Assembly (NCBI GenBank): GCA_022841665.1
Contig: JALHRB010000002.1
Location: 62,001 to 126,000, forward strand
DNA from: Pseudolabrys sp.
GTDB taxonomy: Bacteria > Pseudomonadota > Alphaproteobacteria > Rhizobiales > Xanthobacteraceae
DNA: 64,000 bases
Direction of reading: 5' to 3'
Made by a program: the position numbers and the translations under genes. Below the pieces are notes generated by a model. The model was not told where the DNA came from and searched no databases. It saw only the letters and a list, made by a program, of their open reading frames with translations. Below are positions 271 through 55,477 of this stretch, piece after piece (position 1 is the first letter of the stretch; each line of letters starts with the position of its first letter).

Positions 271-691
271 TTGGACGCCGGCTTGCGTGGAAGCGCGGCT
301 GCACGAAGCGGCGGACGTGATGGCGCGTCTGCCGGAGGTGCGCGTGCAGGGTTACTACTCGCTGTGGCCGAAGATGCTCGCCGAGTTCAGCGATTTGGTT
401 GGCCAGGAACCTCAGCGCCTCAAGCGTCCTCCTCCGTCTCCCGATGCCATCACGCGGATGGAGGAGACACTGGGCTGGTTGCGGTGGCTTGAAGCCGAGG
501 ATGCGAAGCTCGCCTGGGCGCGCGCCGAGCGCACCCCATGGAAAATGATCTGCTGGCGGTTCGGTATCGCTCGCGCCACCGCGCATCGGCGCTGGCAATA
601 TGTGCTGAGCGTGATCACGTGGCGGCTCAACGGGCGGAGGGTGCCGGGGAAGCGGTCACGGCGATTCGTGGTCGAAAGAGCCAAGGCTTGA
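263..691 (+). CDS. DUF6362-like phage protein
   Basis: A 142-residue basic protein with a predicted C-terminal helix-turn-helix stretch (around 90-115, ending RATAHRRWQYV). The Trp-rich middle (LGWLRWLEAEDAKLAWARA) is typical of DUF6362 proteins in alphaproteobacterial prophages, where they lie upstream of a methyltransferase and the terminase. A DNA-binding role is inferred from the HTH-like segment. The start overlaps the previous gene by 8 bp. The stop lies only 4 bp from the convergent merR stop, so the mercury cassette begins exactly behind this gene. It appears full length. Confidence 0.65.
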   Translation: MADWTPACVEARLHEAADVMARLPEVRVQGYYSLWPKMLAEFSDLVGQEPQRLKRPPPSPDAITRMEETLGWLRWLEAEDAKLAWARAERTPWKMICWRFGIARATAHRRWQYVLSVITWRLNGRRVPGKRSRRFVVERAKA

Positions 692-695
692 GATT

Positions 696-1136
696 CTATG
701 CTTCAGCCGGCGGACGACGAACGTCGAGAACGTCAAGCACTGGGCATTCTGGTGCGGTAGTTCCAGTGCAACGCGCAACTGTCTTCGCCAGCAACCGCTC
801 CAGCTTGCGAAGGTCAGCTATCTTGGCGCGAATCTCGTCGAGATGATGCGAAGCGATTTCGCGAACTTCCCGACATGAGGCTTTTGCGGGGCCGCCGAGC
901 CGAATCAGCGCGCGGACCTGATCGAGAGAAAATCCCAACTCCCGCGACCGGCGGATAAAGGCCAGGATACGAAGGTGAGTGGCGTCATAGACGCGACGCC
1001 CACCGGCTGTGCGCGGCGGCGCCGGGAACATCTTGATCCGCTCGTAGTAGCGGATTGTCTCGATGTTCACGCCGGTAAGTTCCGACAAATTACCGATTGT
1101 TAACGCTTCCGCTCGCGCATCTGTGATCGAGCCCAT
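696..1136 (-). CDS. merR: MerR-type mercury-responsive transcriptional regulator
   Basis: A 146-residue MerR-family protein. The N-terminal winged helix spans about 12-80 (IGNLSELTGVNIETIRYYER), followed by a dimerisation coiled coil. Three cysteines at 88, 123 and 131 match the Hg(II)-binding triad of MerR, which binds mercury with one Cys from one subunit and two from the other. It is divergent from merT and separated from it by 68 bp holding a MerR-style promoter. In this family the apo-protein represses and the Hg-bound form activates by untwisting the DNA. The context makes Hg the likely ligand. The C-terminal Cys pair spacing (CX7C) is slightly shorter than in Tn501 MerR. Confidence 0.92.
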   Translation of the reverse strand: MGSITDARAEALTIGNLSELTGVNIETIRYYERIKMFPAPPRTAGGRRVYDATHLRILAFIRRSRELGFSLDQVRALIRLGGPAKASCREVREIASHHLDEIRAKIADLRKLERLLAKTVARCTGTTAPECPVLDVLDVRRPPAEA

Positions 1137-1147
1137 GGTGACCGGCC

Positions 1148-1178
1148 TTGCTCCTGTAGTGACTACAGGAAGTATACC
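1148..1178 (+). promoter_or_regulatory. merT promoter and MerR operator
   Basis: TTGCTC (1148-1153) and TATACC (1173-1178) are separated by exactly 19 bp, the over-long spacer characteristic of MerR-activated promoters. A perfect 8-bp dyad, TCCTGTAG / CTACAGGA (1152-1159 and 1163-1170) with a 3-bp centre, lies between them. It is located between divergent merR and merT, so the dyad is the expected MerR site controlling both. Confidence 0.85.
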
Positions 1179-1204
1179 GCCCGCGATCCAGAGAGGACAA
1201 CGAA

Positions 1205-1618
1205 ATGAGCGAAACGCGCAGCGCCATGGGTTCTATTGCATTGAGCGATCGCCCTGCCAACGCCTCGCCCGGCAAGGGTCAAAAGCTGGCGGCGGCGGGC
1301 GGGATCATCGGTGCGCTCGCCGCATCGTCGTGCTGCATTTTGCCGGTCGTTCTCTTTAGCCTTGGTGTCAGTGGCGCATGGATTGGAAACTTCACGCAGC
1401 TTGCGCCCTATCAGCCGTATTTCATTGCGGCCACGCTCGCTTTCATCGGCACCGGCTATTGGTTGGTCTATCGCTCGTCAAAGGTCGCCTGTGCAGAGGG
1501 TGAGGCTTGCGCACGGCCATTGCCTAACAGATTCGTTAAGATCGCGCTCATTGCGGCGACCGTCATTGTTCTTGCCGCCTGGGCCTTCGACTATGTCGCC
1601 CCCTACGTGCTGTCCTAA
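1205..1618 (+). CDS. merT: mercuric transport protein MerT
   Basis: A 137-residue inner-membrane protein that brings Hg(II) from periplasmic MerP to cytoplasmic MerA. Three hydrophobic segments are visible. The first carries the essential vicinal pair Cys43-Cys44 (SSCCILP) and the cytoplasmic loop holds Cys96 and Cys102. An AGAGAGGA-type ribosome site precedes the chosen ATG; an internal Met8 is an alternative start. It is the first gene of the merTPFA operon downstream of the MerR promoter. Confidence 0.93.
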   Translation: MSETRSAMGSIALSDRPANASPGKGQKLAAAGGIIGALAASSCCILPVVLFSLGVSGAWIGNFTQLAPYQPYFIAATLAFIGTGYWLVYRSSKVACAEGEACARPLPNRFVKIALIAATVIVLAAWAFDYVAPYVLS

Positions 1619-1635
1619 CCAATGGAGCAAATCAA

Positions 1636-1920
1636 ATGATGAAGTACGTCATCCCTGTTACGCTCTCGCTCGGCATCATCGGTCCTTCGTCTGCTCGTGC
1701 AGCGGAAAAAACGGTGACGCTCGCGGTGCAGAACATGTACTGCGCCGCGTGCCCGCACACCGTTAAATCGAGCCTGCAATCCGTGCCGGGTGTCAAAGCG
1801 GTTTCGGTGTCATTCAAAAACAAGACTGCCATCGTGACCTTCGACGACGCAAAGACCAACGTGAAGGCGCTGACGACAGCGACGACGAACGCCGGCTATC
1901 CGTCCTCTCCGAAAGGCTGA
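1636..1920 (+). CDS. merP: periplasmic mercury-binding protein MerP
   Basis: A 94-residue protein with a signal peptide (about 1-22, cleavage near SARA-AEK) and one heavy-metal-associated domain. The Hg ligands are Cys36 and Cys39 in NMYCAACPHTV. It is expected to capture Hg(II) in the periplasm and pass it to MerT or MerF. GGAG lies 8 bp before the ATG; the adjacent second ATG (1639) is an equally possible start. It is 17 bp downstream of merT in the same operon. Confidence 0.93.
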   Translation: MMKYVIPVTLSLGIIGPSSARAAEKTVTLAVQNMYCAACPHTVKSSLQSVPGVKAVSVSFKNKTAIVTFDDAKTNVKALTTATTNAGYPSSPKG

Positions 1921-1927
1921 GCCTCCG

Positions 1928-2179
1928 GTGAAAGCAGCCGGTACCACAATTGGAGCAGTGCTCGTTGGCGCCCTTGCGGTGGTTTGCTGCGCCACGCCAG
2001 CGATTATTGCGGGCATCAGCGTGACGGCGCTCGCAGCTTGGCTCTCCTATTCGGGATACGTGCTGATCGCAGCCGTGCTGATTGCCGGTGCGGTCGGCTG
2101 CGTCCTGTGGCTCCGGCGTCGCGGCATCAATGCTCAAGCGTGCTGCGGGCCAGCAAAGAAGGCGTCAAATCATGAGTGA
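1928..2179 (+). CDS. merF: mercury transport protein MerF
   Basis: An 83-residue protein with two predicted membrane helices. Vicinal cysteines occur in the first helix (Cys20-Cys21, VVCCATP) and at the C-terminal tail (Cys72-Cys73), the hallmark of MerF. It is a second inner-membrane route for Hg(II). It starts with GTG 7 bp after merP and its last codons overlap the merA start by 8 bp, implying translational coupling. Confidence 0.85.
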   Translation: MKAAGTTIGAVLVGALAVVCCATPAIIAGISVTALAAWLSYSGYVLIAAVLIAGAVGCVLWLRRRGINAQACCGPAKKASNHE

Positions 2180-3599
2180 CTGTTGCGCGTCTGGAAATCG
2201 CGGCAAGCAATTTGATCTCGCCGTCATCGGTGCGGGGTCGGCAGGCTTTTCGGCGGCGATCACTGCGGCAGAACAAGGTGCGCAGGTGGCTCTGATTGGT
2301 CATGGCACTCTTGGCGGCACATGCGTCAACATCGGTTGCGTGCCGTCAAAAACACTAATCCGGGCCGCTGAGACACAGCATCAGGCCAGCGCCGCCGCGC
2401 GCTTCGCAGGCATCAGGGCCAAAGGGCAGGTGGGCGATTGGACAGCGACCGTCCAGCAGAAAGACGAGCTCGTTTCGAGCCTGCGCCAATCGAAATACGC
2501 CGATCTTTTACCGGCTTATAACAACATCTCTTACGTCGAAGGGCAGGCCCGCCTTGCCGAAGGTGGCGTGGCCATCAATGGCGATCTGATCAAGGCGCCG
2601 CGCCTTATCATCGTCACGGGCGCACGGCCTGCAGTGCCCTCGATCCCCGGTCTTGATGCTGTCGAGTATCTGACAAGCACCACCGCGCTATCCCTTGAAT
2701 GCCTCCCGAAGTCATTGCTTGTGATCGGCGGGGGTTACATCGGCGCTGAACTAGCGCAGATGTTTGCGCGCATGGGCGTCAAAGTCACAGTCGTTTGCCG
2801 CAGCCACCTGTTGCCGGCGGCGGAGCCGGAAATCTCGGATGCTCTGTCAGGCTATTTCCGAGACGAAGGCATCGCTCTTGAGTGCGGGGTCACTTACAAG
2901 CAGGCGCGGCAGACTGAAGCTGGAGCGGCTCTTGTCGTCACGCGCGAAGCTCGGGATACGACGCTGACAGCCGAGCGCATTTTAGTTGCGACGGGTCGCG
3001 CCCCCAATGTCGAGGGGCTTGGCTTGAGAGAAGCCAAGATCGCGCAAGCGGCAAACGGCAGCATTCAGGTGGACGATCGAATGCAGACCACGCGCCCTGG
3101 CGTGTATGCGGCGGGCGATGTCACCGGCCACGATCAATTCGTTTACATGGCTGCTTACGGTGCGAAGCTTGCGGCCAAGAACGCTCTCAACGGAAACAGC
3201 CTGCGCTATGACAACACGGCTATGCCGTCGGTCGTATTCACTGATCCGCAGGTGGCAAGCGTCGGGTTGACCGAAGGCGCGGCCCGAGCCGCCGGCCGTG
3301 ACGTGAGAGTGTCCGTGCTACCCCTCAGTGCCGTGCCGCGCGCATTGGCGGCGCGAGATACGCGCGGCCTCATCAAGCTTGTTGCCGACAGAAAGAACCG
3401 CAAACTCCTGGGCGCGCACATTCTCGCGCCCGAAGGAAGCGACAGCATTCAGACTGCGGCGCTCGCCATCCAGCAGGGTCTGACGACCAACGATCTTGCC
3501 GACGCGATCTTTCCGTATCTCACAACCGTCGAAGGCTTGAAGCTTGCGGCATTGGGATTCGAGAAAGATGTCGCGAAACTGTCCTGCTGTGCCGGGTAG
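2172..3599 (+). CDS. merA: mercury(II) reductase
   Basis: A 475-residue flavoprotein disulfide reductase that reduces Hg(II) to volatile Hg(0) with NADPH. It has an N-terminal FAD dinucleotide fold (VIGAGSAGFSA), the redox-active motif GGTCVNIGCVPSK (Cys51, Cys56), the second nucleotide fold VIGGGYIGAELAQ, and the C-terminal Hg-delivering pair Cys472-Cys473 (LSCCAG). The N-terminal metal-binding domain of Tn501 MerA is absent, replaced by a short MSDCC leader. I chose the ATG at 2172, which overlaps merF; an upstream in-frame ATG at 2082 would lie deep inside merF and is not convincing. Confidence 0.95.
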   Translation: MSDCCASGNRGKQFDLAVIGAGSAGFSAAITAAEQGAQVALIGHGTLGGTCVNIGCVPSKTLIRAAETQHQASAAARFAGIRAKGQVGDWTATVQQKDELVSSLRQSKYADLLPAYNNISYVEGQARLAEGGVAINGDLIKAPRLIIVTGARPAVPSIPGLDAVEYLTSTTALSLECLPKSLLVIGGGYIGAELAQMFARMGVKVTVVCRSHLLPAAEPEISDALSGYFRDEGIALECGVTYKQARQTEAGAALVVTREARDTTLTAERILVATGRAPNVEGLGLREAKIAQAANGSIQVDDRMQTTRPGVYAAGDVTGHDQFVYMAAYGAKLAAKNALNGNSLRYDNTAMPSVVFTDPQVASVGLTEGAARAAGRDVRVSVLPLSAVPRALAARDTRGLIKLVADRKNRKLLGAHILAPEGSDSIQTAALAIQQGLTTNDLADAIFPYLTTVEGLKLAALGFEKDVAKLSCCAG

Positions 3600-3603
3600 T
3601 TGA

Positions 3604-3990
3604 ATGAACGTTGCAGCCCAATCCGCGAGGGACTGGCTCGGTAAGGCCCATACCAGCATCATCGCGTGGTGGCTCCCTAAAGGTGCCGTAGTCGCTGCGT
3701 TGTTCGCCCCGGTGTCGGCACGCGCGGCCGTTTGGTCCGCTGCGCTCATTTGGATGGGCACAGCGTGCATCCTCAATGCAAAGCGTTGCGGGCGCACGCA
3801 CTGCCGCTACACGGGACCGTACTATCTCGCCATGATCCTTCCTGTGCTTGTGCTTGCATCCGGCCTCGCGTCAGCAAACTTCTACGGTTGGCTCGCGCTT
3901 GCCGCTTTGATCGTCGGTGGCGGCTGGATCATTTGGTGGGCTACGGAACAAGCGTGGGGCGATTCTCGTAGTGCTAAGGATTGCTTCTAG
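3604..3990 (+). CDS. unrecognised Cys/His membrane protein at the end of the mer operon
   Basis: A 128-residue protein starting 4 bp after the merA stop, so probably cotranscribed. Three to four hydrophobic stretches are predicted (about 18-36, 42-57, 74-91, 93-112). A loop between them carries Cys55, Cys62 and Cys67 with a neighbouring His (KRCGRTHCRYTGPYY), potential soft-metal ligands. It does not read as MerT, MerC, MerE or MerF to me. Comparable small membrane proteins occur beside mer genes in other alphaproteobacteria, as far as I recall. A role in mercury transport or membrane handling of Hg(0)/Hg(II) is inference from position and cysteines only. Confidence 0.6.
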   Translation: MNVAAQSARDWLGKAHTSIIAWWLPKGAVVAALFAPVSARAAVWSAALIWMGTACILNAKRCGRTHCRYTGPYYLAMILPVLVLASGLASANFYGWLALAALIVGGGWIIWWATEQAWGDSRSAKDCF

Positions 3991-4087
3991 CTGATCTCGA
4001 CTTGGCCGTGTTGCCACCTGATTTCGGGAACAATGGAGCGCAGCGGAGATTCAATACCCGATTCTTCTGTCAAGATCATTTTGGAAC

Positions 4088-4124
4088 GTGAGACATTTTT
4101 TGGTGAGACATTTTTCGGCGAGAC
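4088..4124. repeat. 15-bp tandem repeat, two full copies and a partial third
   Basis: GTGAGACATTTTTTG (4088-4102) is followed directly by GTGAGACATTTTTCG (4103-4117), with one mismatch, and a degenerate third start GCGAGAC (4118-4124). It is AT-rich in a GC-rich context. Confidence 0.8.
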
Positions 4125-4274
4125 GCAGTTGACCGGTTCAGCGTAATTTCGCGTCAAGCTCGGGCGAGGCGCGCTCGACGATCAGCAAGACCGACGCACG
4201 GGTCCTCCCTGGCGCAAAATGGTATGCGGGGGGCAATGGCCCGAAATTTCGCTACGGCCAGCCACAAAATCTGA

Positions 4275-4395
4275 GTTACCAGTTACCACCCGACGTTGGC
4301 CCCTGTGTGCCCTAGAGGCGCGCAACGGCGCGCGTTTTTGGCTAGGCCGACCTGGTAACCGCGCGTGGTAACCCGCCGAAGCCAGTTACCACCCG
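4275..4395. repeat. cluster of five GTTACC/GGTAAC motifs
   Basis: GTTACC occurs at 4275-4280, 4282-4287 and 4385-4390, and its complement GGTAAC at 4354-4359 and 4367-4372. Two copies sit in an identical 14-bp context, CCAGTTACCACCCG (4279-4292 and 4382-4395). The cluster ends 27 bp before the methyltransferase ATG, so operator sites for a phage regulator or a replication/partition iteron are both possible. Confidence 0.7.
4317..4339 (+). terminator. possible rho-independent terminator
   Basis: GGCGCGC, an AAC loop and GGCGCGCG are followed by TTTTT. CCTAG and CTAGG flank it and could extend the pairing. It could end the mer transcript, but the GCGC sequence is self-complementary, so the fold is ambiguous. 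Confidence 0.4.
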
Positions 4396-4422
4396 CCGCG
4401 GCACACCGCCGAACCAAACCAA

Positions 4423-5818
4423 ATGAAACCGCGACTGCCCGACGCGGTCGAGCATTGGCCGCTCGATCGGCTGAGCCCGTACGCGCACAACGCCCGGACT
4501 CACGACGACGACCAGGTGGCGCAGATCGCGGCCTCGATCGTCGAATTTGGCTGGACCAACCCGATCCTGGTTGACGCGGAAGGAGGCATTGTCGCGGGCC
4601 ATGGCCGTCTGCTCGCCGCGCGTAAGCTCGGGCTCGACAGCGTGCCGGTCATCGTCCTCGACCAACTGACCCCGGCGCAGCGTCGCGCCTACGTCATCGC
4701 CGACAACAAGCTTGCGCTCAACGCCGGCTGGAACGAGGAACTGCTCGCGGCCGAACTGCATGCGCTCAACGGCGGCGGCTTCGACCTCGCGCTCACCGGC
4801 TTCTCCGAGATCGAACTCGACGCCTTGATGGCGCCGCTCGCCGATGAAGCGGAAGCGGATGAGCCCACGGGCGAGGAGGATGCTGCCGACGAAATGCCTG
4901 CAGCCTCGCGCGAGCCGGTCACTCGCACCGGAGACCTCTGGTTGATCGGCAAGCACAGGCTCCTCTGCGGCGACAGCACGAGTGCATCGGTGGTAGCGCG
5001 CGTGATGGACGGCGAACGCGCGGCGCTGGTCTTCACGTCGCCCCCCCTATGGGAGCCAACGCGACTACACGACCGGCGGCGTCAACAACTGGGATGCGCT
5101 GATGCGCGGCGTCTTCGCGGCCCTGCCGGTCGCGGATGCGGCGCAGATCCTGGTCAACCTCGGTCTGATCCATCGGGAGAACGAGTGGCAGCCGTACTGG
5201 CACGCCTGGCTCGATTGGATGCGCGAGCAGGGTTGGCGTCGGTTCGGGCTCTACGTCTGGGACCAGGGACCGGGACTGCCGGGCGACTGGAATGGTCGGC
5301 TGGCGCCGGCCTTTGAGCTCATCTTTCATTTCAATCGGAAGGCGCGAAAGCCGAACAAGATCGTGCCATGCAAGTGGGCCGGCCACGTCAACGACACGCA
5401 CGGCGGCATCAGGCACAAGGACGGCCATGTCGGCGAATGGACTCACGCCGGACAGGGCGTGCAGGACACGCGCATCCCCGACAACGTCATCCGCATCACG
5501 CGGCACAAGGCGCGCGGCATCGAAACCGAACATCCGGCGGTATTTCCCGTCGCGCTGCCGGAATTCGTGATGCGCGCCTACAGCAACGAGCGAGAGATCG
5601 TCTACGAGCCGTTCGCCGGCTCGGGCACCAGCATCATCGCGGCGGAACGTACGGGCCGGCGCATGCGGGCGATCGAACTCGCGCCCGAGTACGTCGACGT
5701 CGCGCTCCGCCGGTGGCGCAATCTCTTTCCCGATCAGCCAGTGAAACTCGATGGCGAAGGCCAAACTTTCGAAGCGGTCGCGCGCCAGCGTGGGGTCGCA
5801 ATCCCCAGCGACGGCTGA
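4423..5818 (+). pseudogene. ParB-like nuclease domain / DNA methyltransferase, frameshifted at a C7 tract
   Basis: The N-terminal 120 residues are a ParB/Srx-type domain (VAGHGRLLAARKLGL), then a linker, then an N-4/N-6 methyltransferase. The first frame reads to TSPP and then runs out of frame; the second frame resumes with YGSQRDYTTGG and continues to 5818 through the SAM-binding FAGSGTSIIAAE. Removing one C from the seven at 5041-5047 restores a continuous gene with the catalytic SPPY motif intact. So either the gene is inactivated, the tract is phase-variable, or there is a base-calling error. The protein would be about 464 residues, close to its downstream paralogue. Such genes are common in alphaproteobacterial phages and may modify phage DNA against host restriction. 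Confidence 0.85.
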
Positions 5819-7052
5819 GCCGCTGCAAGTCGAGAGCTGGCCGATCGATCGGCTGCTGCCCTACGCGGCCAACGCGCGGACCCACCCCGACGAGCAGCTC
5901 GCCCAGATTGCCGGCTCGATCGCGGAGTTCGGCTTCAACGTTCCCTGCTTGGTCGACGACCGCGGCGTGCTGATTGCCGGCCATGGCCGCATCGTCGCTG
6001 CGAAGCGGCTTGGCCTACAGCAGGTCCCAGTCATTCGGCTCGGGCACCTGACCGACGCTCAAGCGCGTGCGTTTCGCCTGGCCGATAATCGCATCGCACT
6101 CAACGCAGGGTGGGACGAGGAGATGCTGGCTGCCGAGCTCGGGCGGCTCAAGGAAGACGGCGTCGACCTCGACCTGCTGGGCTTTGCAGAGGATGAACTG
6201 GACCGCCTGCTCGATGGCCTCGATCAAGGTGGAGCGTCCGCTGAAGAGGACGAAGTCCCTGAACCGCCAGCCCAGGCGGTGACCCGCCCGAGCGATCTCT
6301 GGATGCTCGGGCGCCATCGTCTACTGTGCGGCGACGCTACGGTCGCAACAGACGTCCAACGTCTGCTCGACGGTGTGCGCCCGCATCTGATGGTGACGGA
6401 CCCACCCTACGGCGTCGAGTACGATCCGAACTGGCGGAACGAATCCGGGGTCTCCGAGACGGCGCGTGTCGGCAAAGTCAGCAACGATGACCGTGCGGAC
6501 TGGCGTGACGCCTGGAGCCTGTTCCCCGGCGAGGTCGCCTATGTCTGGCACTCTGGGATCCACGCGCGGACCGTCGCGGAGAGTCTCGACGCTTGCGGCT
6601 TCGGGATCAGGACACAGATCGTATGGGCGAAGCCACGCCTGGTGCTGGGACGCGGTGATTATCATTGGCAGCACGAACCGTGCTTCTACGCGGTGCGAAA
6701 GGGAGCGACCGGCCACTGGCAGGGCGCGCGCGATCAAACCACGCTATGGACCATCGCCACCGGAGAGAACGACGAAGCCACGGAGCACGGCACCCAGAAG
6801 CCGGTCGAATGCATGCGCCGGCCAATGGTCAACAACAGCGCGAAAGGTGATCTGGTTTATGAGCCGTTCGCAGGCTCTGGTTCGACGTTGATTGCTGCCG
6901 AAACCGTCGGCCGCGTTTGCCTCGCGATCGAAATCGATCCGCGCTACTGCGATGTCATCATCGAGCGCTGGCAGCGCCATGCCGGACGCGCGGCGACACT
7001 TGATGATGGGCGCACCTTCGATGTGCTAAAGGGCGAGAGGTTGACCGCATGA
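5751..7052 (+). CDS. ParB-like domain / DNA methyltransferase
   Basis: A 433-residue protein with the same layout as the preceding broken gene: ParB-like domain about 25-125 (IAGHGRIVAAKRLGL), acidic linker, then an adenine/cytosine-N methyltransferase with catalytic DPPY (TDPPYGVEYDP) and SAM motif FAGSGSTLIAAE near the C-terminus. The motif order (DPPY before FxGxG) is the beta class. The target sequence cannot be predicted. The start overlaps the previous gene by 68 bp; a later start is possible but would cut into the basic leader only. It ends 8 bp before a strong hairpin. Confidence 0.85.
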   Translation: MAKAKLSKRSRASVGSQSPATAEPLQVESWPIDRLLPYAANARTHPDEQLAQIAGSIAEFGFNVPCLVDDRGVLIAGHGRIVAAKRLGLQQVPVIRLGHLTDAQARAFRLADNRIALNAGWDEEMLAAELGRLKEDGVDLDLLGFAEDELDRLLDGLDQGGASAEEDEVPEPPAQAVTRPSDLWMLGRHRLLCGDATVATDVQRLLDGVRPHLMVTDPPYGVEYDPNWRNESGVSETARVGKVSNDDRADWRDAWSLFPGEVAYVWHSGIHARTVAESLDACGFGIRTQIVWAKPRLVLGRGDYHWQHEPCFYAVRKGATGHWQGARDQTTLWTIATGENDEATEHGTQKPVECMRRPMVNNSAKGDLVYEPFAGSGSTLIAAETVGRVCLAIEIDPRYCDVIIERWQRHAGRAATLDDGRTFDVLKGERLTA

Positions 7053-7059
7053 ACGGCAA

Positions 7060-7089
7060 AGCGCCGCCGGGTTTGAAACCGGCGGCGCT
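7060..7089. terminator. bidirectional hairpin terminator between convergent genes
   Basis: AGCGCCGCCGG (7060-7070) pairs perfectly with CCGGCGGCGCT (7079-7089) across an 8-nt loop GTTTGAAA. It lies between the rightward methyltransferase and the leftward DUF3489 gene. No T-run is present, so termination efficiency is uncertain. Confidence 0.6.
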
Positions 7090-7103
7090 GGGTCGTCTTC
7101 AAA

Positions 7104-7673
7104 TCAGGCCGCGATGCGGTAGACGCGGCCGCGCCCTTCGACCTTCTCCGACTGCACGTCCAGCCCGAGCTTCTTCTTGAGCGCGCCGGCGATGGCGCCG
7201 CGCACGGTGTGCGCCTGCCAATCGAATTTCTTCACGATCTCCTCGATGGTGGCGCCTTTGGCACTCTTGAGCATTTCGATGAGCTGCGCCTGCTTGCTGT
7301 TGGCGCGCGTGCCACGCGGCTTCTCCTTCGATTTGCCGGCCTTTCGCTTCCGGCGCGAGCCTGTCTCGGCTTCCGCGGCTGCATCGGCGTCACCCTCGGT
7401 ACCGGCAGGAGCCTCGTCCTGTTGGATGCCAAGGGCCTCGAATGCGGCTGACGCCGCACGCAAGGTCAAGCGGCCACGCTTCTTGTCCTCGCGCCAAACG
7501 GTGTCCTCGCGCTTGGCCTGCACTTCCTTGATCAGACCCTTGTTGAGAAGGCTGCCGAGAACCTTGGCCGCGGCACCGCCGGGAAGTTTGCCGGTGAGGG
7601 GATAGACCGATCGGTCCGGCCGCTGGCAAGCGGCCGTCAGGACAACGAGTTGAGAATCGGAAAGCTGTGCCAT
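7104..7673 (-). CDS. DUF3489 domain protein
   Basis: A 189-residue protein. The N-terminal half (LSDSQLVVLTAACQR) resembles a winged-helix fold. A Lys/Arg- and Ala/Glu-rich linker (about 85-125) leads to a C-terminal DUF3489 domain (TIEEIVKKFDWQAHTVRGAIAGALKKKLG) that also looks like an HTH. A DNA-binding regulatory role is an inference. Proteins of this type are frequent in Hyphomicrobiales prophages between the methyltransferase and terminase genes, as here. Confidence 0.75.
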   Translation of the reverse strand: MAQLSDSQLVVLTAACQRPDRSVYPLTGKLPGGAAAKVLGSLLNKGLIKEVQAKREDTVWREDKKRGRLTLRAASAAFEALGIQQDEAPAGTEGDADAAAEAETGSRRKRKAGKSKEKPRGTRANSKQAQLIEMLKSAKGATIEEIVKKFDWQAHTVRGAIAGALKKKLGLDVQSEKVEGRGRVYRIAA

Positions 7674-7773
7674 GGTGTTGGCTCCCTGGTAGTCGGGCCG
7701 CGATCATCGCGGCCCTTCTACGACCCCGAGCCCCGCATCGGAGCGGGGCGTGGCCCGGGGGCGCTGGAGCCAG

Positions 7774-8019
7774 TCAGCTTCGGCGTGACAGCACGCGGTC
7801 CATGGATTTCTCGAAGGTCTCGTTCGGTAGCGCCGACTCGGCCGCGTGCCGGATCACGCCGAAAATGAGCAGTTGCACGCGTCTGACAGCCTGTTCGAGG
7901 GTTTCTCCGGGCAGAACCGTGGCGCCGCAATTCGCGAGGAATTTTCGGAGCGCCGGCTCCCGCGCGGCGGTGACGCGAGCGCGAATCTCCGCGGGGGTTA
8001 GGCCGGTCCAGTCTTCCAT
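7774..8019 (-). CDS. small hypothetical phage protein
   Basis: An 81-residue protein (MEDWTGLTPAEIRARV start) with mainly helical character and no motif I recognise. I chose the ATG at 8019 because GAGAGGAG lies just upstream. An alternative ATG at 8043 would overlap the stop of the upstream gene in an ATGA junction. It is the second of three leftward genes that probably form one transcript starting near 8.45 kb. Confidence 0.6.
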   Translation of the reverse strand: MEDWTGLTPAEIRARVTAAREPALRKFLANCGATVLPGETLEQAVRRVQLLIFGVIRHAAESALPNETFEKSMDRVLSRRS

Positions 8020-8039
8020 GGCGATGCTCCTCTCGATGA

Positions 8040-8408
8040 TCATGCGGCCACTTCGGCCATGATCTCGCAGTCGGTGACGAAGCCGACCAAGTAGGGCAAC
8101 CCGCGTGGGATTCCCGTCTCGCGCGCCGTGCGGCGGTCGATCGTCCAGGCCATCCAGCGGTCGACTGCGGCTTCGATTGATTGCGGCAGGGGCAGTCCCT
8201 TGAACAGGCCGTTGGCCACGTCGTCGGCGAAGTGCCGGCCATGGCGGCTGTCGAGGAAATCGCGAACACCGGCGTCTGAGCATCCCGTCGCTTCGCCGAC
8301 TGCCTGCATGGCGATCGGCCAGGCTTCGGCAGGATCGGCATGGTGGCGGATGGTGCCCCAGAAGCCCCAGGCTTCGTTGTTGCTGGCCAGTTTGGCGGTC
8401 TCGGTCAT
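8040..8408 (-). CDS. hypothetical phage protein
   Basis: A 122-residue acidic protein beginning MTETAKLASNNEAWGFWG. Trp-rich and helical; similar proteins occur in alphaproteobacterial prophages, but I know of no function. The ATG at 8408 was preferred over an upstream in-frame ATG (8480) because the extension is Arg/Ala-rich and looks non-coding. First gene of the leftward trio; 101 bp separate it from the divergent terminase small subunit gene, so promoters for both directions should lie at 8409-8509. Confidence 0.6.
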   Translation of the reverse strand: MTETAKLASNNEAWGFWGTIRHHADPAEAWPIAMQAVGEATGCSDAGVRDFLDSRHGRHFADDVANGLFKGLPLPQSIEAAVDRWMAWTIDRRTARETGIPRGLPYLVGFVTDCEIMAEVAA

Positions 8409-8509
8409 GGCGGTCTCCGTTCCGTGATGGCGCCATAAAGGCGCTGCTTTGGCCCGGAGCCAAGCAGATAATCGCGCCATTTGATTGCTTTCTTCGCGCC
8501 AGGACGATC

Positions 8510-9067
8510 ATGGGATTATCGATCCGCGCTTATGCCCGCAGGCGCGGCGTGAGCCATGTTGCGGTACTGCGCGCGATCAAGCAGGGCCGCGTCCCGGTCG
8601 AGCCGGACGGCACGATCGATCCCGCCAAAGCCGACGCGTCCTGGGAGCGCTCGACCGATCCGGGCCGGGCGAAATCGAAGTCGAAGGCTACCGCAGAGAA
8701 ACTGCGCCCCGTCGGCGAGGCGGCGCTTGGCTCCGTGCGCGAGACGCTGAAGGAGCAGGGTCTGCCCGCCGGCGGCAGCGTCACCTTCGTCCAGGCGCGA
8801 ACCGCGCACGAAATCGCCAAGGCACATCTCGCGCGGCTGCGCTTGCAGCGCATGAAGGGCGAGCTTGTCGACCGCGCCCGCTCGACGGCGCTCGTGTTCC
8901 GGCTGGCGCGCGAAGAGAGGGATTCCTGGCTCAACTGGCCGGCGCGGATCGCAGCCCTGATCGCAGCCGAGCTCGGCGTGGAGGCCCACGCCGTGCAGAA
9001 GGTCGTGGAGGGGCATGTCCGCGCTCACCTTGCCGAACTCGCCGATATACGGCCCGAGTTCCGATGA
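8510..9067 (+). CDS. terminase small subunit-like protein
   Basis: A 185-residue protein with an N-terminal HTH of Nu1 type (LSIRAYARRRGVSHVAVLRAI), a Lys/Ser-rich linker and a helical C-terminal oligomerisation region. It immediately precedes and overlaps the large terminase by 53 bp, the standard arrangement. Its expected role is recognising the packaging site and presenting DNA to the large subunit. No sequence motif proves this; the HTH plus position is the basis. Confidence 0.75.
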   Translation: MGLSIRAYARRRGVSHVAVLRAIKQGRVPVEPDGTIDPAKADASWERSTDPGRAKSKSKATAEKLRPVGEAALGSVRETLKEQGLPAGGSVTFVQARTAHEIAKAHLARLRLQRMKGELVDRARSTALVFRLAREERDSWLNWPARIAALIAAELGVEAHAVQKVVEGHVRAHLAELADIRPEFR

Positions 9068-11027
9068 CGCATTCGCCTTCGATGGCGCGGAGGACCTGAG
9101 CCAAGCCTGGCGCGACGGGCTCTTGCCCGATCCGTCGCTCACGGTCTCCGAATGGGCGGACCGCCATCGGGTGTTGAGTCCACGCGCCTCGGCCGAGCCT
9201 GGGCGCTACCGCACGGATCGCACGCCCTACATGCGCGCGATCATGGATGCGATGTCGCCGGCGCATCCGGTACGGCGCATCGTCTTCATGAAGGCGGCCC
9301 AGGTCGGGGCGACCGAGGCCGGCAACAACTGGATCGGCTACGTCATCCATCATGCACCCGGGCCGATGCTCGCGGTGCAGCCGACTGTCGAGCTCGCCAA
9401 GCGTTTCTCACGCCAGCGCCTCGATCCACTGATCGAGGAAAGCCCCGCTCTCCGTCAGCGGGTGAAGCCTGCCCGCTCGCGCGATGCCGGCAATACGATG
9501 CTGTCGAAGGAGTTCCCCGCAGGACTCCTCGTCATCACCGGCGCCAACAGCGCAGTCGGGCTACGCTCGATGCCGGCGCGTTATCTGTTCCTCGACGAGG
9601 TCGATGCCTACCCGCCCTCGGCCGACGAGGAAGGCGATCCGGTCGCGCTCGCGGAAGCACGCACGCGCACCTTTTCCTGGCGGGCGAAGGCATTCCTCGC
9701 CTCGACGCCGACGCTCGCCGGGCTCTCGCGCATCGAGCGTGAATACGAAGCTTCGGACCAGCGCCGATACTTCGTGTCCTGCCCCCATTGCAAGGACACG
9801 CAATGGCTCAAGTTCGAGCGGCTGCGGTGGGAAAAAGGCCAGCCTGAGACGGCGCACTACGAATGCGCCTCCTGCGACGGCCGCGTCGAGGAGCACCACA
9901 AGACGGCCATGCTCCGGTCCGGCGAGTGGCGCCAGACCGCTGAGGCGCAGGATCCGGGCACGATCGGGTTCCACATCTCGGCGCTCTATTCGCCGGTCGG
10001 GTGGTTCTCCTGGGAGAACATCGCGCGTCTCTGGGAAGCAGCGACCACCGACGAGGCCAAGCGCAGCTTCAAGAACAGCGTCCTCGGGGAAACCTGGATC
10101 GAGACCGGTGAGGCACCGGACTGGCAACGCCTCTACGAGCGGCGCGAGACTTGGCAGATCGGCACAGTGCCGCGAGGCGGTCTGTTCCTGACGGCGGGCG
10201 CCGACGTCCAGAAGGATCGCATCGAAGTCGATGTCTGGGCCTGGGGACGAGGTCTCGAAAGCTGGCTCGTCGACCACATCGTGGTCGAAGGCGGACCCGA
10301 GCAAGCCGAGACCTGGGAAGAGCTTGGGCTTCTTCTTGATCGGACCTGGCTGCATGCCCACGGCACGCGGATCGGAATAGCGAAGCTCGCGATCGACACC
10401 GGCTATGAGGCGCCGGCCGTATACGCTTGGGCACGCAAGATGGGTCACGCGCAGGTCGCGCCCATCAAGGGCGTTGACGGCTTCAACCGGACGGCGCCGG
10501 TCGCAGGCCCGACCCATGTCGACGTCACCGAAGGCGGCAAGAAACTGCGCCGCGGTGCGCGGCTGTGGACCATCGCGGTCGCGACTTTCAAGAGCGAGAC
10601 CTACCGCTTCTTGCGCTTGTCGACGCCGACCGACGAGGAAATCGCGACTGGCGCCAAGTTTCCGGTGGGCTACGTGCACCTGGCGCGCGGCACCGAAGCG
10701 GAGTGGGTCAAGCAGCTGGTCGGCGAGCAATTGGTCACGGTCAAGACCAAGCGCGGTTTCAGCCGGCTCGAATGGCAGAAGCTGCGCGAGCGCAACGAAG
10801 CACTCGATTGCCGCGTCTACGCCCGCGCGGCCGCGTGGATCGCGGGTGCCGACCGCTGGACCGAGGCGATGTGGCGCGACCTCGAGCAGCAGGTCGGCCT
10901 CTCGGGAGAAATAGCGGACGATCCGTCGGGCGATACGGAATCGCCGGCCGACAGCGTTGCCGGTGTCATCCGGCGGCGGCCGGAGCGCCGCAGCCGGCGC
11001 GTGTTCCGATCGAGCTATATGAGCTGA
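9015..11027 (+). CDS. phage terminase large subunit (GpA family)
   Basis: A 670-residue packaging motor and nuclease of the lambda GpA type. The ATPase domain shows a Walker-A-like KAAQVGATE (about 95) and Walker B YLFLDEVDAY (about 195). A CPHC / CASC zinc-ribbon-like pair lies around 255-290, and the C-terminal half should hold the nuclease that cuts concatemers. Length fits lambda GpA (about 640). The start overlaps the small subunit gene. GpA-type terminases normally produce cos ends. Confidence 0.93.
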   Translation: MSALTLPNSPIYGPSSDDAFAFDGAEDLSQAWRDGLLPDPSLTVSEWADRHRVLSPRASAEPGRYRTDRTPYMRAIMDAMSPAHPVRRIVFMKAAQVGATEAGNNWIGYVIHHAPGPMLAVQPTVELAKRFSRQRLDPLIEESPALRQRVKPARSRDAGNTMLSKEFPAGLLVITGANSAVGLRSMPARYLFLDEVDAYPPSADEEGDPVALAEARTRTFSWRAKAFLASTPTLAGLSRIEREYEASDQRRYFVSCPHCKDTQWLKFERLRWEKGQPETAHYECASCDGRVEEHHKTAMLRSGEWRQTAEAQDPGTIGFHISALYSPVGWFSWENIARLWEAATTDEAKRSFKNSVLGETWIETGEAPDWQRLYERRETWQIGTVPRGGLFLTAGADVQKDRIEVDVWAWGRGLESWLVDHIVVEGGPEQAETWEELGLLLDRTWLHAHGTRIGIAKLAIDTGYEAPAVYAWARKMGHAQVAPIKGVDGFNRTAPVAGPTHVDVTEGGKKLRRGARLWTIAVATFKSETYRFLRLSTPTDEEIATGAKFPVGYVHLARGTEAEWVKQLVGEQLVTVKTKRGFSRLEWQKLRERNEALDCRVYARAAAWIAGADRWTEAMWRDLEQQVGLSGEIADDPSGDTESPADSVAGVIRRRPERRSRRVFRSSYMS

Positions 11028-11031
11028 ACCC

Positions 11032-11244
11032 ATGACTCTCGAAGAGATGACGGCGCAGCGCGATGCGTTGCTTGCCGCGCGCTTCCGCGGCGTGCGCACG
11101 GTCGAGATCGATGGCCGGCGCGTCACGTATGCCACCGACGCCGAGATGGCAGCCGCCATCACGGATCTCGAACGCCGGATCGCCGCCGCCGGTGAAGGCG
11201 GCCGGCGCCGCCGCATCCTGACGTCCGCTTCGAAGGGACTCTGA
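11032..11244 (+). CDS. gpW-like head-tail joining protein
   Basis: A 70-residue protein placed between terminase and portal, as lambda gpW is. The pattern MTLEEMTAQRDALLAARF with a short beta segment (RTVEIDGRRVTYATDAEM) is typical of gpW, which stabilises packaged heads and prepares the tail attachment site. It starts 4 bp after the terminase stop. Confidence 0.82.
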   Translation: MTLEEMTAQRDALLAARFRGVRTVEIDGRRVTYATDAEMAAAITDLERRIAAAGEGGRRRRILTSASKGL

Positions 11245-11248
11245 TCTC

Positions 11249-12733
11249 GTGGTCGTTTCGCTGAAAGCTTTCCGGCGCCGGGTCGGGGCGTTCATCGGCG
11301 GCTTCGAGGCAGGGCTGGCGAACCGCCGGCTCAAGGGGTTCCAGCCGAGCCGGGCGCACCTCAACACGCTGATCGCGGCGGCCGGTCCCGACATCACGGC
11401 GCGCGCCCGCTGGCTCGTTCGCAACAACGGCTATGCGGCGAACGCGATCGAGAGCTGGGCCGGTAATGTTGTCGGCGCCGGCATCAAGCCGTCCTCGCTG
11501 ATCGCGGATCCCGAGCTCAAGGCGCGGGTGCAACAGCTCTGGCTTGATTGGACCGACGAGGCCGATGCCGAAGGCTTCACTGACTTCTACGGACTGCAGC
11601 GCCGTGCTGCGCGCGAGGTGTTCATCGCGGGCGAGGTATTCTTCCGGTTCCGGCCACGCCGGCCGCAGGATGGCCTCACGGTACCGCTCCAGCTGCAGAT
11701 GATCCCTTCGGAGATGCTGCCGCTCAATCGTAACGAGGTCATTCCCGGTGGCAATGTGATCCGACAGGGGATCGAATTCGATGCGATCGGGCGGCGCGTT
11801 GCGTACCACTTTCTGCGGCGGCACCCGGGTGACTTCACTGATCCAGGTCTGGCGGGCGACATTGTTCGGGTGCCTGCGTTCGAGGTCGTGCACGTCATCG
11901 ATCCGGTTGATGCAGGACAGCTCCGGGGAGTGTCGCGCTTCGCGGCCGGCATCGTGAAGCTCTTCCTGCTCGACCAGTACGACGATGCCGAGCTGGATCG
12001 CAAGAAGGTCGCGGCGATGCACGCGCTCTTCATCACGACGCCGGCCCCGGCCGAGCCGCTTGATGCCGCGGAGGGACGCGACGAGAACGACGAGCGCACG
12101 ATCGACCTTCAGCCGGGGCAGATCACGATGCTGGAGCCCGGCGAGGAGGTTCAGACGTCGGCCCCGGCGGACGTGGGCCAGACCTACGAGCCGTTCCAGT
12201 ACCGCACGCTCTTGCAGGTGTCGGCCGCGCTCGGTGTGCCTTATGCGTATCTGTCGAACGACATGCTCAAGGCGAATTACTCGAACTCCCGCCTCGCGCT
12301 GCTCGAATTCCGTCGCCGCATCGAAGCCTACCAGCATGCGGTGATCGTCTGGCAGCTGTGCCGCCAGGTCTGGGCGCGCTGGATGGACACCGCGGTGCTC
12401 GCGGGCGCGCTGGCACTCCCAGATTATGACCAGCGTCGGCGCGAGTATCTCGCCTGCGGTTGGCTGCCGCCGAAGTGGGATTGGGTCGATCCACTCAAAG
12501 ACGCCCGCGCCGAGATCGAGCAGATCGATGCCGGCCTCAAGAGCCGAACCCAGGCGTTGGCGGAGCGCGGCTACGACGCCGAACAGGTCGATGCCGAGAT
12601 CGCTGCCGACAAGGCGCGTGAGAAATCGCTCGGCCTGACCTTCGGGTCGGCCGCACCCCTGGATGCAGCGCAAGCGCCAAGCGATCCCGGCGCGGCGGGT
12701 GACGCCGATGTGCTGCCCGAACCGGCTCAATAG
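11249..12733 (+). CDS. phage portal protein (lambda GpB family)
   Basis: A 494-residue portal with the family opening (ARARWLVRNNGYAANAIESWAGNVVGAGIKP). It should form the dodecameric DNA channel at one capsid vertex. The start is GTG, 4 bp after the gpW-like stop. The last 70 residues are acidic and Ala-rich. Its 3' end stops 13 bp before the start chosen for the protease. Confidence 0.93.
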   Translation: MVVSLKAFRRRVGAFIGGFEAGLANRRLKGFQPSRAHLNTLIAAAGPDITARARWLVRNNGYAANAIESWAGNVVGAGIKPSSLIADPELKARVQQLWLDWTDEADAEGFTDFYGLQRRAAREVFIAGEVFFRFRPRRPQDGLTVPLQLQMIPSEMLPLNRNEVIPGGNVIRQGIEFDAIGRRVAYHFLRRHPGDFTDPGLAGDIVRVPAFEVVHVIDPVDAGQLRGVSRFAAGIVKLFLLDQYDDAELDRKKVAAMHALFITTPAPAEPLDAAEGRDENDERTIDLQPGQITMLEPGEEVQTSAPADVGQTYEPFQYRTLLQVSAALGVPYAYLSNDMLKANYSNSRLALLEFRRRIEAYQHAVIVWQLCRQVWARWMDTAVLAGALALPDYDQRRREYLACGWLPPKWDWVDPLKDARAEIEQIDAGLKSRTQALAERGYDAEQVDAEIAADKAREKSLGLTFGSAAPLDAAQAPSDPGAAGDADVLPEPAQ

Positions 12734-12746
12734 CGGTACGCCCCAA

Positions 12747-14042
12747 ATGATCGACCTGCCCCATGTCGCGTCCCGCGTGTTCGGGACGCCGTTGATGATC
12801 GCGCGCGCCAAGCTCGAGGTGATCCTTGGCGTGCTGGCGCCGCGCCTCGCCGGCAGCACATCGGAACCAATCGATCCGGAGGCCGATCCGGCGCCGCAGA
12901 CGTCGATCACCGTCGAGAGGATCGCGGTGGTGTCGGTCATCGGCACGCTGGTGAGCCGCTCGGGCTATCTCGCCGCCGCCAGCGGGCTCGTTTCATACGC
13001 CGATATCGGCGACGCGATTGCGGCCGCGATGGACGATCCATCCGTGCGCGGCGTCATCCTGGACGTCGACTCGCCGGGCGGCGAGGTTGGCGGTCTGTTC
13101 GACCTGGTCGAGCAGATGCGCGCGATCAAGGCCGGCAATGGCAAGCCGCTTTGGGCGGTGGCGAACGAGAACGCGCTGTCCGCGGCCTATGCGGTCGCAA
13201 GCACAGCTGATCGGCTTTACGTGACGCGCACCGGCGAAGTCGGCTCGATCGGCGTCGTCGCGGTCCATGTCGACGAGAGCGGAGCAGACGCAAAAGCAGG
13301 CCTCGCGTGGACCTTCGTATTCGCGGGGGAGCGCAAGGTCGACGCCAATGGCCACGAGCCGCTCTCCGAGCGCGCCCGTGCCACGATCCAGGCTGACGTC
13401 AACCGCCTGTACGCGCAATTGTGCGGGCTCGTCGCTGCCAATCGCGGCCTGACCATCGAGGCCATGCGCGCGACCGACGCCGCGATCTATCGCGGCGAGC
13501 TCGCGATCCGCGCCGGCTTGGCCGACCGCCTGGGTACGCTCGATCTCGCCATCGCCGAAATGGTGGCCGAACTCGACCGCACGGCATCCACCGCGCGCAA
13601 CATCGTCAACCCGACCCCGAAGAGGAGCCCGTCCATGGCGACGACCGAGACCGAACGGATTCAACACGATGCGACCGAGCCGCAGCTGCCGCTCGCGTCG
13701 CAAGCAGCGCCGCAGGCGCCGAACCCCGAGCCCACTCCGCCTGCACCGGAGCCTGCAGCCGATCCGGCGCCTGTACCCGGTCCGGCGGACAAGCTGCGTG
13801 CGGAATATGCCGACATTGCCGCGCTCGCAGCTCAGGCCGCCCGCCTCGGCGTCACCGTCGACGCCACGGATGCCATGCGCAAAGGCATCTCGGCCGATGC
13901 GCTGCGCCGCTCCGTGCTCGATGCGCTCGCCGCACGCGCCGAGGCGACGAGCGTCATCGCGGCAGCGCCATCCACAACTGCCACCGGAGAAAGCCCGATC
14001 GTGCGGCGCGCCAAGGAACGCGCCGCGGCGGCTCGCGCGTGA
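12747..14042 (+). CDS. S49-family capsid maturation protease with C-terminal scaffold
   Basis: A 431-residue protein. Residues about 45-270 are a SppA/lambda gpC-type S49 serine protease: SPGGEVGGLFD oxyanion region and the nucleophile-containing ALSAAYAVAS segment. The remainder is Pro/Ala-rich then helical, as in a scaffold. I chose the ATG at 12747 (MIDLPHVASRV); an upstream in-frame ATG overlaps the portal gene and encodes non-homologous residues. The protease should cleave scaffold and itself inside the prohead. Confidence 0.9.
   Translation: MIDLPHVASRVFGTPLMIARAKLEVILGVLAPRLAGSTSEPIDPEADPAPQTSITVERIAVVSVIGTLVSRSGYLAAASGLVSYADIGDAIAAAMDDPSVRGVILDVDSPGGEVGGLFDLVEQMRAIKAGNGKPLWAVANENALSAAYAVASTADRLYVTRTGEVGSIGVVAVHVDESGADAKAGLAWTFVFAGERKVDANGHEPLSERARATIQADVNRLYAQLCGLVAANRGLTIEAMRATDAAIYRGELAIRAGLADRLGTLDLAIAEMVAELDRTASTARNIVNPTPKRSPSMATTETERIQHDATEPQLPLASQAAPQAPNPEPTPPAPEPAADPAPVPGPADKLRAEYADIAALAAQAARLGVTVDATDAMRKGISADALRRSVLDALAARAEATSVIAAAPSTTATGESPIVRRAKERAAAARA
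13635..14042 (+). CDS. nested in-frame scaffold protein (Nu3-like internal start)
   Basis: Inside the protease gene, in the same frame, an ATG at 13635 (MATTETERIQHDA) is preceded by AAGAGGAG at optimal distance. It begins exactly where the protease domain ends and yields a 135-residue Pro/Ala-rich then helical protein. Lambda makes its scaffold Nu3 from gene C in the same way. Predicted from the ribosome site and domain boundary; expression is not proven. Confidence 0.68.
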   Translation: MATTETERIQHDATEPQLPLASQAAPQAPNPEPTPPAPEPAADPAPVPGPADKLRAEYADIAALAAQAARLGVTVDATDAMRKGISADALRRSVLDALAARAEATSVIAAAPSTTATGESPIVRRAKERAAAARA

Positions 14043-14061
14043 TCACTGAGGAGCAACAGAC

Positions 14062-14451
14062 ATGACCACTCTCACCATGTCGCCGACGCTCGGCGACCTG
14101 CTCAAGTATGAGCTCAACACGAGTTACAGCCGCGAGACCGTGACGCTCAAGTCCGGCACGAACTACGCACTCGGGTCCGTGCTCGGCAAGATCACCGCCT
14201 CCGGCAAGTATCGCCTGTCGCCGGCAGCCCAGGTCGGGGGCGATGAGGGCGCGGAGACTGCGGTCGCCGTCCTGATCCACGCGGTGGACGCAACTGCCGC
14301 CGACAAGACCGGCCTCGTGGTCGCGCGCGGTCCTGCGATCGTGTCCAAGGCGGCACTCGTCTTCGACGCATCCGTCGATCAGCCGGCGGAGAAGGCCGGG
14401 AAGCACACCCAACTCGCCACCGTCGGTGTCGTTCCCCGCGACACGGCCTGA
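14062..14451 (+). CDS. head decoration protein (lambda gpD-like)
   Basis: A 129-residue protein with the gpD/HDPD pattern: LGDLLKYELNTSYSRETVTL followed by a small beta-rich fold with TAVAVLIHAVDATAADK and a conserved C-terminus. Decoration trimers cap the expanded capsid lattice. It lies between the protease/scaffold and capsid genes, as in lambda. A good ribosome site (GAGGAG) precedes the ATG. Confidence 0.88.
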   Translation: MTTLTMSPTLGDLLKYELNTSYSRETVTLKSGTNYALGSVLGKITASGKYRLSPAAQVGGDEGAETAVAVLIHAVDATAADKTGLVVARGPAIVSKAALVFDASVDQPAEKAGKHTQLATVGVVPRDTA

Positions 14452-14534
14452 TCCACCGCACACATCACCCCACACGTCATCACGGGCCTCGACGGATTCA
14501 CCGTTCGGGGCCCGAACCATTTTGAGGAGGCCCC

Positions 14535-15557: not shown

Positions 15558-15565
15558 GCCGCGTG

Positions 15566-15883
15566 ATGGATGCTTTCTCGGCGGCGACCGACACGCTGTT
15601 CGGCGACCCGAACATCGCCCGCAGCGCGCTCTGGCGCACGGGCGGTGCGGGCGACGGAATCGCGGTTCGCGTCATCACCAAGAAGCCCGACCAGGTGGTC
15701 GGTTTCGGCGACAGCCGGGCGATCCTGCCGACGATGCTGATCGACGTGCGCCGGTCGGAAATCCCGAACCCCGCTTCGGGCGACACCGTCGAGGTCGACG
15801 GCACAGTGTTCGAGGTCGTCGCCACTCCGGTCGCCGACAGCCTGGGCCTGGTCTGGACCTGCGAGGCGGCGGCGCCGGCATGA
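15566..15883 (+). CDS. head-tail joining protein (gpFII-like)
   Basis: A 105-residue protein in the position of lambda FII. The layout is an N-terminal helix (MDAFSAATDTLFGDPN) followed by a beta-rich domain containing a basic patch (VITKKPDQVVGFGDS) and PASGDTVEVDGTVFEVV, typical of this attachment family. The ATG at 15566 follows the capsid stop by 8 bp; the same frame is open further upstream but overlaps capsid codons. Confidence 0.8.
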   Translation: MDAFSAATDTLFGDPNIARSALWRTGGAGDGIAVRVITKKPDQVVGFGDSRAILPTMLIDVRRSEIPNPASGDTVEVDGTVFEVVATPVADSLGLVWTCEAAAPA

Positions 15884-15886
15884 TTC

Positions 15887-16543: not shown

Positions 16544-16545
16544 AC

Positions 16546-16629
16546 GTGAAGCACAGGGCGACTGCGATCCTGATGGCGCTCTTGTCATTCGCCTTCATCA
16601 CTTCGGTACTCGTAGCGAGCCTGCGATGA
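16546..16629 (+). CDS. 27-residue membrane mini-protein
   Basis: A GTG-started frame of 27 codons with GGAGG 4-5 bp upstream. Its stop overlaps the ATG of the next gene (ATGA). After the basic start KHRAT the remainder (about residues 6-25) is one hydrophobic segment ending LVASLR, i.e. a single membrane helix. It may be a functional small protein or merely a leader coupling translation to the tail terminator gene. I do not know a homologue. Confidence 0.5.
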   Translation: MKHRATAILMALLSFAFITSVLVASLR

Positions 16630-17060: not shown

Positions 17061-17085
17061 ACTTCATCAAGCTTAGGAGAGTCCC

Positions 17086-18027: not shown

Positions 18028-18096
18028 TCCACTGGCCCGATCCCATGAGCGATTGCGCTCCGTTCGAGAGTTCGCGCTCCAATCCAAGAGGTTCCG

Positions 18097-22453: not shown

Positions 22454-22455
22454 CC

Positions 22456-23726: not shown

Positions 23727-23728
23727 TC

Positions 23729-24361: not shown

Positions 24362-24364
24362 TCC

Positions 24365-55416: not shown

Positions 55417-55477
55417 CTTCAGATACCTAAACGCGGGCGGCTGTGGCTCAATGACGGATCGTGCAATCACCTGCCGG

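Follow-up and report, generated by a model that had tools for sequence, protein, structure and literature searches.

The window analyzed here comprises 64,000 nucleotides of a Pseudolabrys genome (G000; positions 62001-126000 of contig C2 in an assembly of 3.85 Mb and 125 contigs) and carries a mercury resistance (mer) operon inside a prophage. An earlier inspection of the window alone, hereafter the original prediction, had called a complete mer set with one extra gene, separated from the last phage gene on its left by only 4 bp. Both calls were confirmed: merR, merT, merP, a weakly matching merF-like gene, merA, and the additional gene orf128 are present (Table 1), and the DUF6362 gene stops at 691, next to the end of merR at 696. 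merR opposes the series merT-merP-merF-merA-orf128 (1205-3990, plus strand). Compared loci and genomes are referred to below by L and G numbers, respectively.

The operon has the makeup of a narrow-spectrum mer system, with MerA assigned by TIGR02053 and the Hg(II) uptake proteins MerT and MerP assigned by Pfam and NCBIfam, respectively. The alignment of MerA with the mercuric reductase 5x1y begins at residue 12, runs to the end of MerA, and takes in the C-terminal cysteine pair, and MerR aligned with the regulator 4ua1, including three cysteines; we take these cysteines to be Hg-binding. A MerR-type operator lies between merR and merT, is also present in the diverged copies L025 and L160, and occurs as a variant in L273. 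The operator pattern was absent from the mer loci L226, L228, L254, and L271 when these were scanned, and the one match in L227 seems fortuitous. The G+C content is 59-61% at 1001-4000, compared with 64-70% per kb at 5001-25000.

Table 1. Features of the mer operon and the surrounding prophage (window coordinates unless a contig is given)
Feature	Position	Strand	Evidence or remark
DUF6362 gene, last phage gene left of mer	263-691	plus	PF19889, phrog_6836
Block near-identical in seven phage backgrounds (DUF6362 3' part, mer, to cos motif)	353-4240		
merR	696-1136	minus	Pfam MerR families; TIGR02051 best match, 113.6, below cut-off of 150.85
MerR-type promoter/operator	1148-1178	plus	19-bp spacer, 7-bp arms
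merT	1205-1618	plus	PF02411 90 bits, cut-off 32.9; NF010314 89.7, below cut-off of 150
merP	1636-1920	plus	TIGR02052 112.2, cut-off 92.55
merF-like gene	1928-2179	plus	weak: NF033565 25.1, below cut-off of 50
merA, without N-terminal metal-binding domain	2175-3599	plus	TIGR02053 544, cut-off 454
orf128 (128 amino acids), mer-linked hydrophobic protein	3604-3990	plus	no Pfam or NCBIfam family
Putative cos (cohesive-end site) motif TATGCGGGGGGC	4223-4234	plus	equals RcKemmy right end joined to left end
First ParB-methyltransferase	4423-5818	plus	phrog_498 on first piece; frame interrupted near 5.04 kb
Second ParB-methyltransferase	5751-7052	plus	PF01555, phrog_498
Terminase small subunit (TerS)	8510-9067	plus	phrog_57
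Terminase large subunit (TerL)	9015-11027	plus	phrog_15
Portal, head protease, major head, tail, fibre, and endolysin genes	11249-31726	plus	family matches
Serine recombinase, left of window	C2:48765-50078		

The original prediction had also placed mer within a prophage, and the surrounding genes agree with this. On the left lie replication genes and a serine recombinase, the latter accompanied, beyond the edge of the window, by genes for DUF2924, an AAA_24 protein, a Dda-like helicase, and a Toprim/DUF7146 primase-like protein. On the right, ParB-methyltransferase, terminase, structural, and lysis genes continue to ~32.0 kb and include those for a tape measure protein and a GTA-TIM tail protein. 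Integrase, replication, packaging, head, tail, and lysis genes are all found within one stretch, as befits a temperate siphophage. Similarity to the prophage of a second Pseudolabrys genome (G127) extends to about position 32045, beyond which host cobalamin genes follow, giving a prophage of ~45 kb.

We compared the locus with mer-less relatives sharing its gene order, the check by which the breakpoints were to be defined. An empty site was found, and the insert extends from ~680 to ~4066, interrupting the last codons of the DUF6362 gene; these codons are replaced by the insert, and a short piece resembling them is left on its right side. In the mer-less loci L013, L014, and L022, the DUF6362 match stops 159 bp before the cos motif, and in L010, 436 bp before it; L018 has the motif with one change. 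The span first proposed for the cassette, 691-4423, was correct in its location but not at its right end, as 4423 is the start of the methyltransferase gene. The claim that transposon ends are lacking was borne out. No target duplication was seen when the insert borders were compared with the empty sites, no open reading frame (ORF) for a transposase, as expected of a mer transposon of the Tn21/Tn501 type, lies in 680-4066, and inverted and direct repeats at the two insert ends were not above shuffled sequences (13/100 and 56/100 shuffles as high). mer has apparently been placed between DUF6362 and cos without a transposon. In the second Pseudolabrys genome and in independent phage contigs, this insert likewise separates the two phage genes that flank it here. 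Together with the mer-less empty sites, this indicates that both flanks belong to one element rather than to two unrelated ones, the alternative that the prediction had raised against itself.

The interval between the DUF6362 and methyltransferase genes measures 348-6304 bp over the 81 loci having both genes, a set in which contigs recur, and holds mer in 9 rows from 3 contigs. Eight of nine scanned interval ORFs belong to a family (PIN, TauE, GGDEF, DUF488, TspO, patatin, nitronate monooxygenase, and HipA) and the ninth, in L077, to none; a tenth scanned ORF, located between TerL and portal in L081, encodes an isochorismatase. On this evidence, the region is a place for cargo. With its own operator, and with relatives that are empty at the same place, the mer insert has the properties of a phage moron.

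Among cultured phages, those with the most similar TerL are the Rhodobacter RcC phages RcKemmy, RcBaka, and RcOceanus (64.7% identity over 90% of the query). They share the order DUF6362-like helix-turn-helix gene, genome ends, ParB, TerS, TerL, gpW-like gene, and portal, whereas neither mer genes nor an integrase are annotated in RcKemmy. The report on the RcC phages gives 11-base 5' overhangs, interpreted by its authors as cohesive-end packaging (PMC8601537). The linear RcKemmy record ends with CTATGCG and starts with GGGGGCGG; joined, these form the 12-mer TATGCGGGGGGC, which also occurs inside the RcOceanus record at the corresponding place. The ends of RcBaka are similar and do not form the exact 12-mer. 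In the window, this 12-mer occurs once (0.01 expected), at 4223. It is exact in 25/82 related intervals; the other 57 have a best match of 9-11 of 12 bases, often the identical string TATGCTGGCGGG, although contigs repeat among these rows and a 9-of-12 match alone could be chance. Because the insert ends ~160 bp left of a motif equal to the joined RcKemmy ends, we infer that mer forms the last ~3.4 kb at the right end of the virion DNA of a putative cos-type phage. Just left of the motif, at 4090-4127, lie repeats of GTGAGACATTTTT that are retained at the L013 empty site and are possible binding sites of the terminase or of a regulator.

The block reaching from the 3' part of the DUF6362 gene to the cos motif was 99.7-100% identical in G127 and, in whole or in part, in seven IMG/VR contigs. 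It differed by 0-2 substitutions from L156, L157, L158, and L225 (G127). The parts present in L159 and L161 had no substitutions, with a 4-base gap in L161; L109 (623 bp) was identical, and L335 (620 bp) had one mismatch and one gap. L156, L158, and L109 represent one phage background. Despite this near-identity, TerL is 83-84% identical between the window and L156, L157, L158, and L225. Beyond the block, identity between the window and the carrier phages, taken per 500 bp, is 64-98% (five sets compared), with block flanks at 74-88%. The mutual near-identity of L156, L157, L158, and L225 extends 1.1-1.6 kb left of the block (99.9-100%) and, per 500 bp, reaches 5-7 kb from cos where the contigs extend that far; the left breakpoint of the window lies inside DUF6362. 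On the right, the identical run stopped 13-50 bp past the first base of the 12-mer in 21/21 pairs from seven backgrounds (window, L225, L156, L157, L159, L161, and L335), these pairs not being independent events. In L161, identity drops at once to 67-68% right of the motif, and L335 differs one base after it.

In a control of 2211 pairs of 67 loci, identity of at least 99.8% on the left combined with at most 94% on the right was found in 14 pairs, all between mer carriers. These pairs involve 6 mer-carrier rows, with L156 and L158 being one phage; L161 and L335, too short on the left, were not included, and some control rows came from one contig (L018/L078 and L019/L106). The nearest mer-less case was L023 with L019, L020, and L106 (left 97%, right 81-85%).

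Two diverged copies were also found. In L025, mer meets the phage DNA on the left at the same point as in the window; identity to the block is 87%, and the contig stops before cos. In L160 (L104 reversed), mer lacks orf128, is encoded on the opposite strand, and lies between TerL and a gpW-like gene (L104 3313-6380). This is a second, independent insertion place, in a close relative whose TerL is 96% identical to that of the window; the inserts of the window and L160 are 84% identical and have different borders. The ratios of nonsynonymous to synonymous substitution rates (dN/dS, NG86) in merA were 0.091 for window-L025, 0.089 for window-L160, and 0.121 for L025-L160, values that show purifying selection on merA. 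In a MerA tree of 39 rows, from which L156-L159 were omitted as near-copies, the window, L225, and L025 formed a clade with support of 100/97. L226 joined it at 92/82 (below the level marked with a star), followed by L160, with 100/99 for the five.

Among 391 genomes of the bacterial family, matches of >76% DNA identity over most of the cassette were, among those listed, confined to G000 and G127. MerA at ≥66% was found in 7/43 genomes of the genus; in G000 and G127, no MerA match exceeds 40% except that of the phage-borne gene (others ≤39%), apart from a truncated second copy in G127. Eight stretches in IMG/VR matched MerA patterns, which detect close relatives only; seven of them encode a relative, and all 7 contigs carry genes of this phage family. 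A 20-residue match in L268 was set aside, having no homologue of mer or of this phage. The original prediction had considered that mer might lie outside the prophage in related genomes. In the collections searched, the near-identical cassette was found only within this phage family, and more distant mer genes (MerA ≤90%) occur outside it as well. A plasmid source of the cassette was rejected, as 0/1748 matching plasmid records cover 80% of it in one place. The fecal record MT835550, which is without annotation, encodes a MerA with 64.6% identity.

Together, these data make it probable (roughly 80%) that a temperate cos-type siphophage lineage of Pseudolabrys and its kin carries a self-regulated Hg(II) detoxification operon beside cos as lysogenic-conversion cargo that was recently passed between divergent phages. 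Judged by comparison of sequences, mer is a genuine, selected phage cargo with a recent history of spread between phages, and spread by the phage itself is strongly suggested. The gene content, its place, the empty site, the near-identical block, the end of identity at cos, and the purifying selection on merA can be read from the sequences themselves. In a lysogen, MerR would act on its own operator, independently of the phage repressor; MerT, MerP, and MerF would import Hg(II), and MerA would reduce it, presumably making the host resistant. Between cells, the phage would carry mer in its packaged DNA. When two phages meet, their ends could join at cos, and a single crossover left of mer would produce a phage with the mer-bearing end. 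A segment ending at cos could in this way pass between divergent phages, hence between host species. In phage lambda, cos cutting stimulates recombination, and the right end enters the cell first. We propose tentatively, at somewhat less than even odds, that the mer-bearing right-terminal segment was swapped as a unit at cos between phages differing by ~7-34% right of cos, so that resistance beside cos outpaces the phages themselves.

The main rival to an exchange joined at cos is ordinary homologous recombination between coinfecting phages, with cos playing no role and a conserved stretch making the right ends look alike. The identity of the block flanks suffices for phage recombination, and the left breakpoint of the window, within DUF6362, is at no special site. 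Moreover, among the window, L156, L157, L159, and L225, identity is still 89-97% over the 500 bp that follow the motif on the right, which blurs the breakpoints: those of four backgrounds are not fixed to the base and could lie somewhat further right, a point that also tells against our interpretation. Homology persists over kilobases on the right, yet the identical run of any two distinct backgrounds ends by +50 bp, and the immediate divergence of L161 and L335 also speaks against ordinary recombination, which we regard as possible but less likely than not.

Other observations likewise weigh against lysogenic-conversion cargo that moves with its phage. The first ParB-methyltransferase consists of two overlapping frames here, compared with a single ORF in L158 (463 amino acids) and L225 (462 amino acids); the interruption may be decay or a sequencing error. 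No repeat of at least 11 bp is common to both prophage edges as an attachment (att) site, and the right edge has an apparent insertion-sequence remnant (32136-32331 is 85% identical to a G200 locus that, by eye, resembles an insertion-sequence transposase region). On these three grounds, this copy may be decayed. The G127 prophage is clearly rearranged: the DUF6362-mer stretch is present in two copies of opposite orientation (L207-L210, G127 C1:1862001-1942000), one breaking off within merA, where portal sequence follows, and the other beside a TerL joined to tail genes. Such features would fit a stationary relic, in which a defective prophage took up mer and the operon has since acted like any other part of the chromosome. 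We consider this improbable, as the block occurs in seven different phage backgrounds, including contigs classed as viral, and mer occupies two insertion places. Phage-borne mer also does not form one clade: in 0% of 200 bootstrap trees does a single branch set it apart from the remaining copies, which makes repeated capture, or an escape, likely. L226 falls among the phage copies; the 12 kb of L226 that were examined hold no homologue of this phage's proteins and contain host-like genes, one of them for a P-type ATPase. The main caveat is assembly chimerism, as every carrier is a metagenome-assembled genome or a metagenome contig. Assemblers could have joined the arm of one mer phage to co-occurring relatives, and the joints do fall within a short conserved stretch. 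However, the G127 copy lies in a single 3.43 Mb contig, carriers were contributed by two genomes and six IMG/VR data sets, and the diverged L025 and L160 are separate cases, so that chimeras are a quite improbable explanation. Least probable is a cryptic transposon or integron-like cassette that brought mer in. The two insertion places in close relatives would suit such an element, but the insert is without a recombinase, its end repeats are no better than shuffles, and the two 84% identical inserts have different borders, with L160 lacking orf128.

Transposons and plasmids are the main known carriers of mercury resistance. For Salmonella phage SJ1 (P1-like, Punavirus; OQ595196), the record contains merR, T, P, C, A, D, and E. 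SJ1 differs from the present lineage in that its mer genes are of the Tn21 type with adjoining insertion sequence elements, and its MerA is 45.9% identical. Its prophage is of the plasmid-like kind, as opposed to an integrated cos siphophage. The view that phage-borne mer loci are uncommonly described thus fits the open-licence literature, in which we found no report of transposon-free mer in cos-type phages, but is qualified by the precedent of SJ1; what appears to be new here is a transposon-free mer beside cos in a cos-type temperate phage lineage. According to a study of Paracoccus prophages, 10/59 have possible metal resistance genes, and these alphaproteobacterial temperate elements resemble ours in that some have serine recombinases and ParB-methyltransferases upstream of the terminase; the stretch from ParB to the terminase is named the ParB-Tls locus there. 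Their genes are ArsB, ZntA, Ter, CorA, and others, with no mer operon among those listed in the section that describes them (PMC6536676). Other studies describe only tellurium-type genes, on one genome, among 111 viral genomes from a contaminated site (PMC11128244), and resistance genes in soil phages under chromium stress (PMC8240259). In a paper on 103 alphaproteobacterial phage genomes, the word "mercury" is absent from the main text (PMC10783043). In the present case, the full mer operon of a temperate phage lineage is under purifying selection and bears the signature of a recent sweep through phages and two host genomes, and both phage-borne metal resistance and cargo exchange at cohesive ends become directly testable.

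From its recurrence, orf128 is a repeated companion of alphaproteobacterial merA. A relative is encoded in 35 plasmid records; in L227, L228, L245, and L248, one lies 21-978 bp from merA, some of these matches being partial. On the Phaeobacter plasmid pP66_b, a relative (45.5% identical) follows merA in identical gene order, with a regulator opposing merT, the merP position, merF, merA, and the orf128-like gene; this plasmid differs from the prophage in being conjugative. The relatives have a common cysteine-rich stretch, and the hydrophobic stretches and conserved cysteines suggest a membrane protein of an uptake or thiol-handling step.

Scans for tRNA genes and Rfam families gave no matches. 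A search for the empty host site was unsuccessful, as the left-flank aminotransferase gene is conserved in the genus and no match to the right flank follows it in the five loci compared. Outside the prophage, the G+C content falls to 57-61% at 55001-59000 in a window that is mostly at 64-73%.

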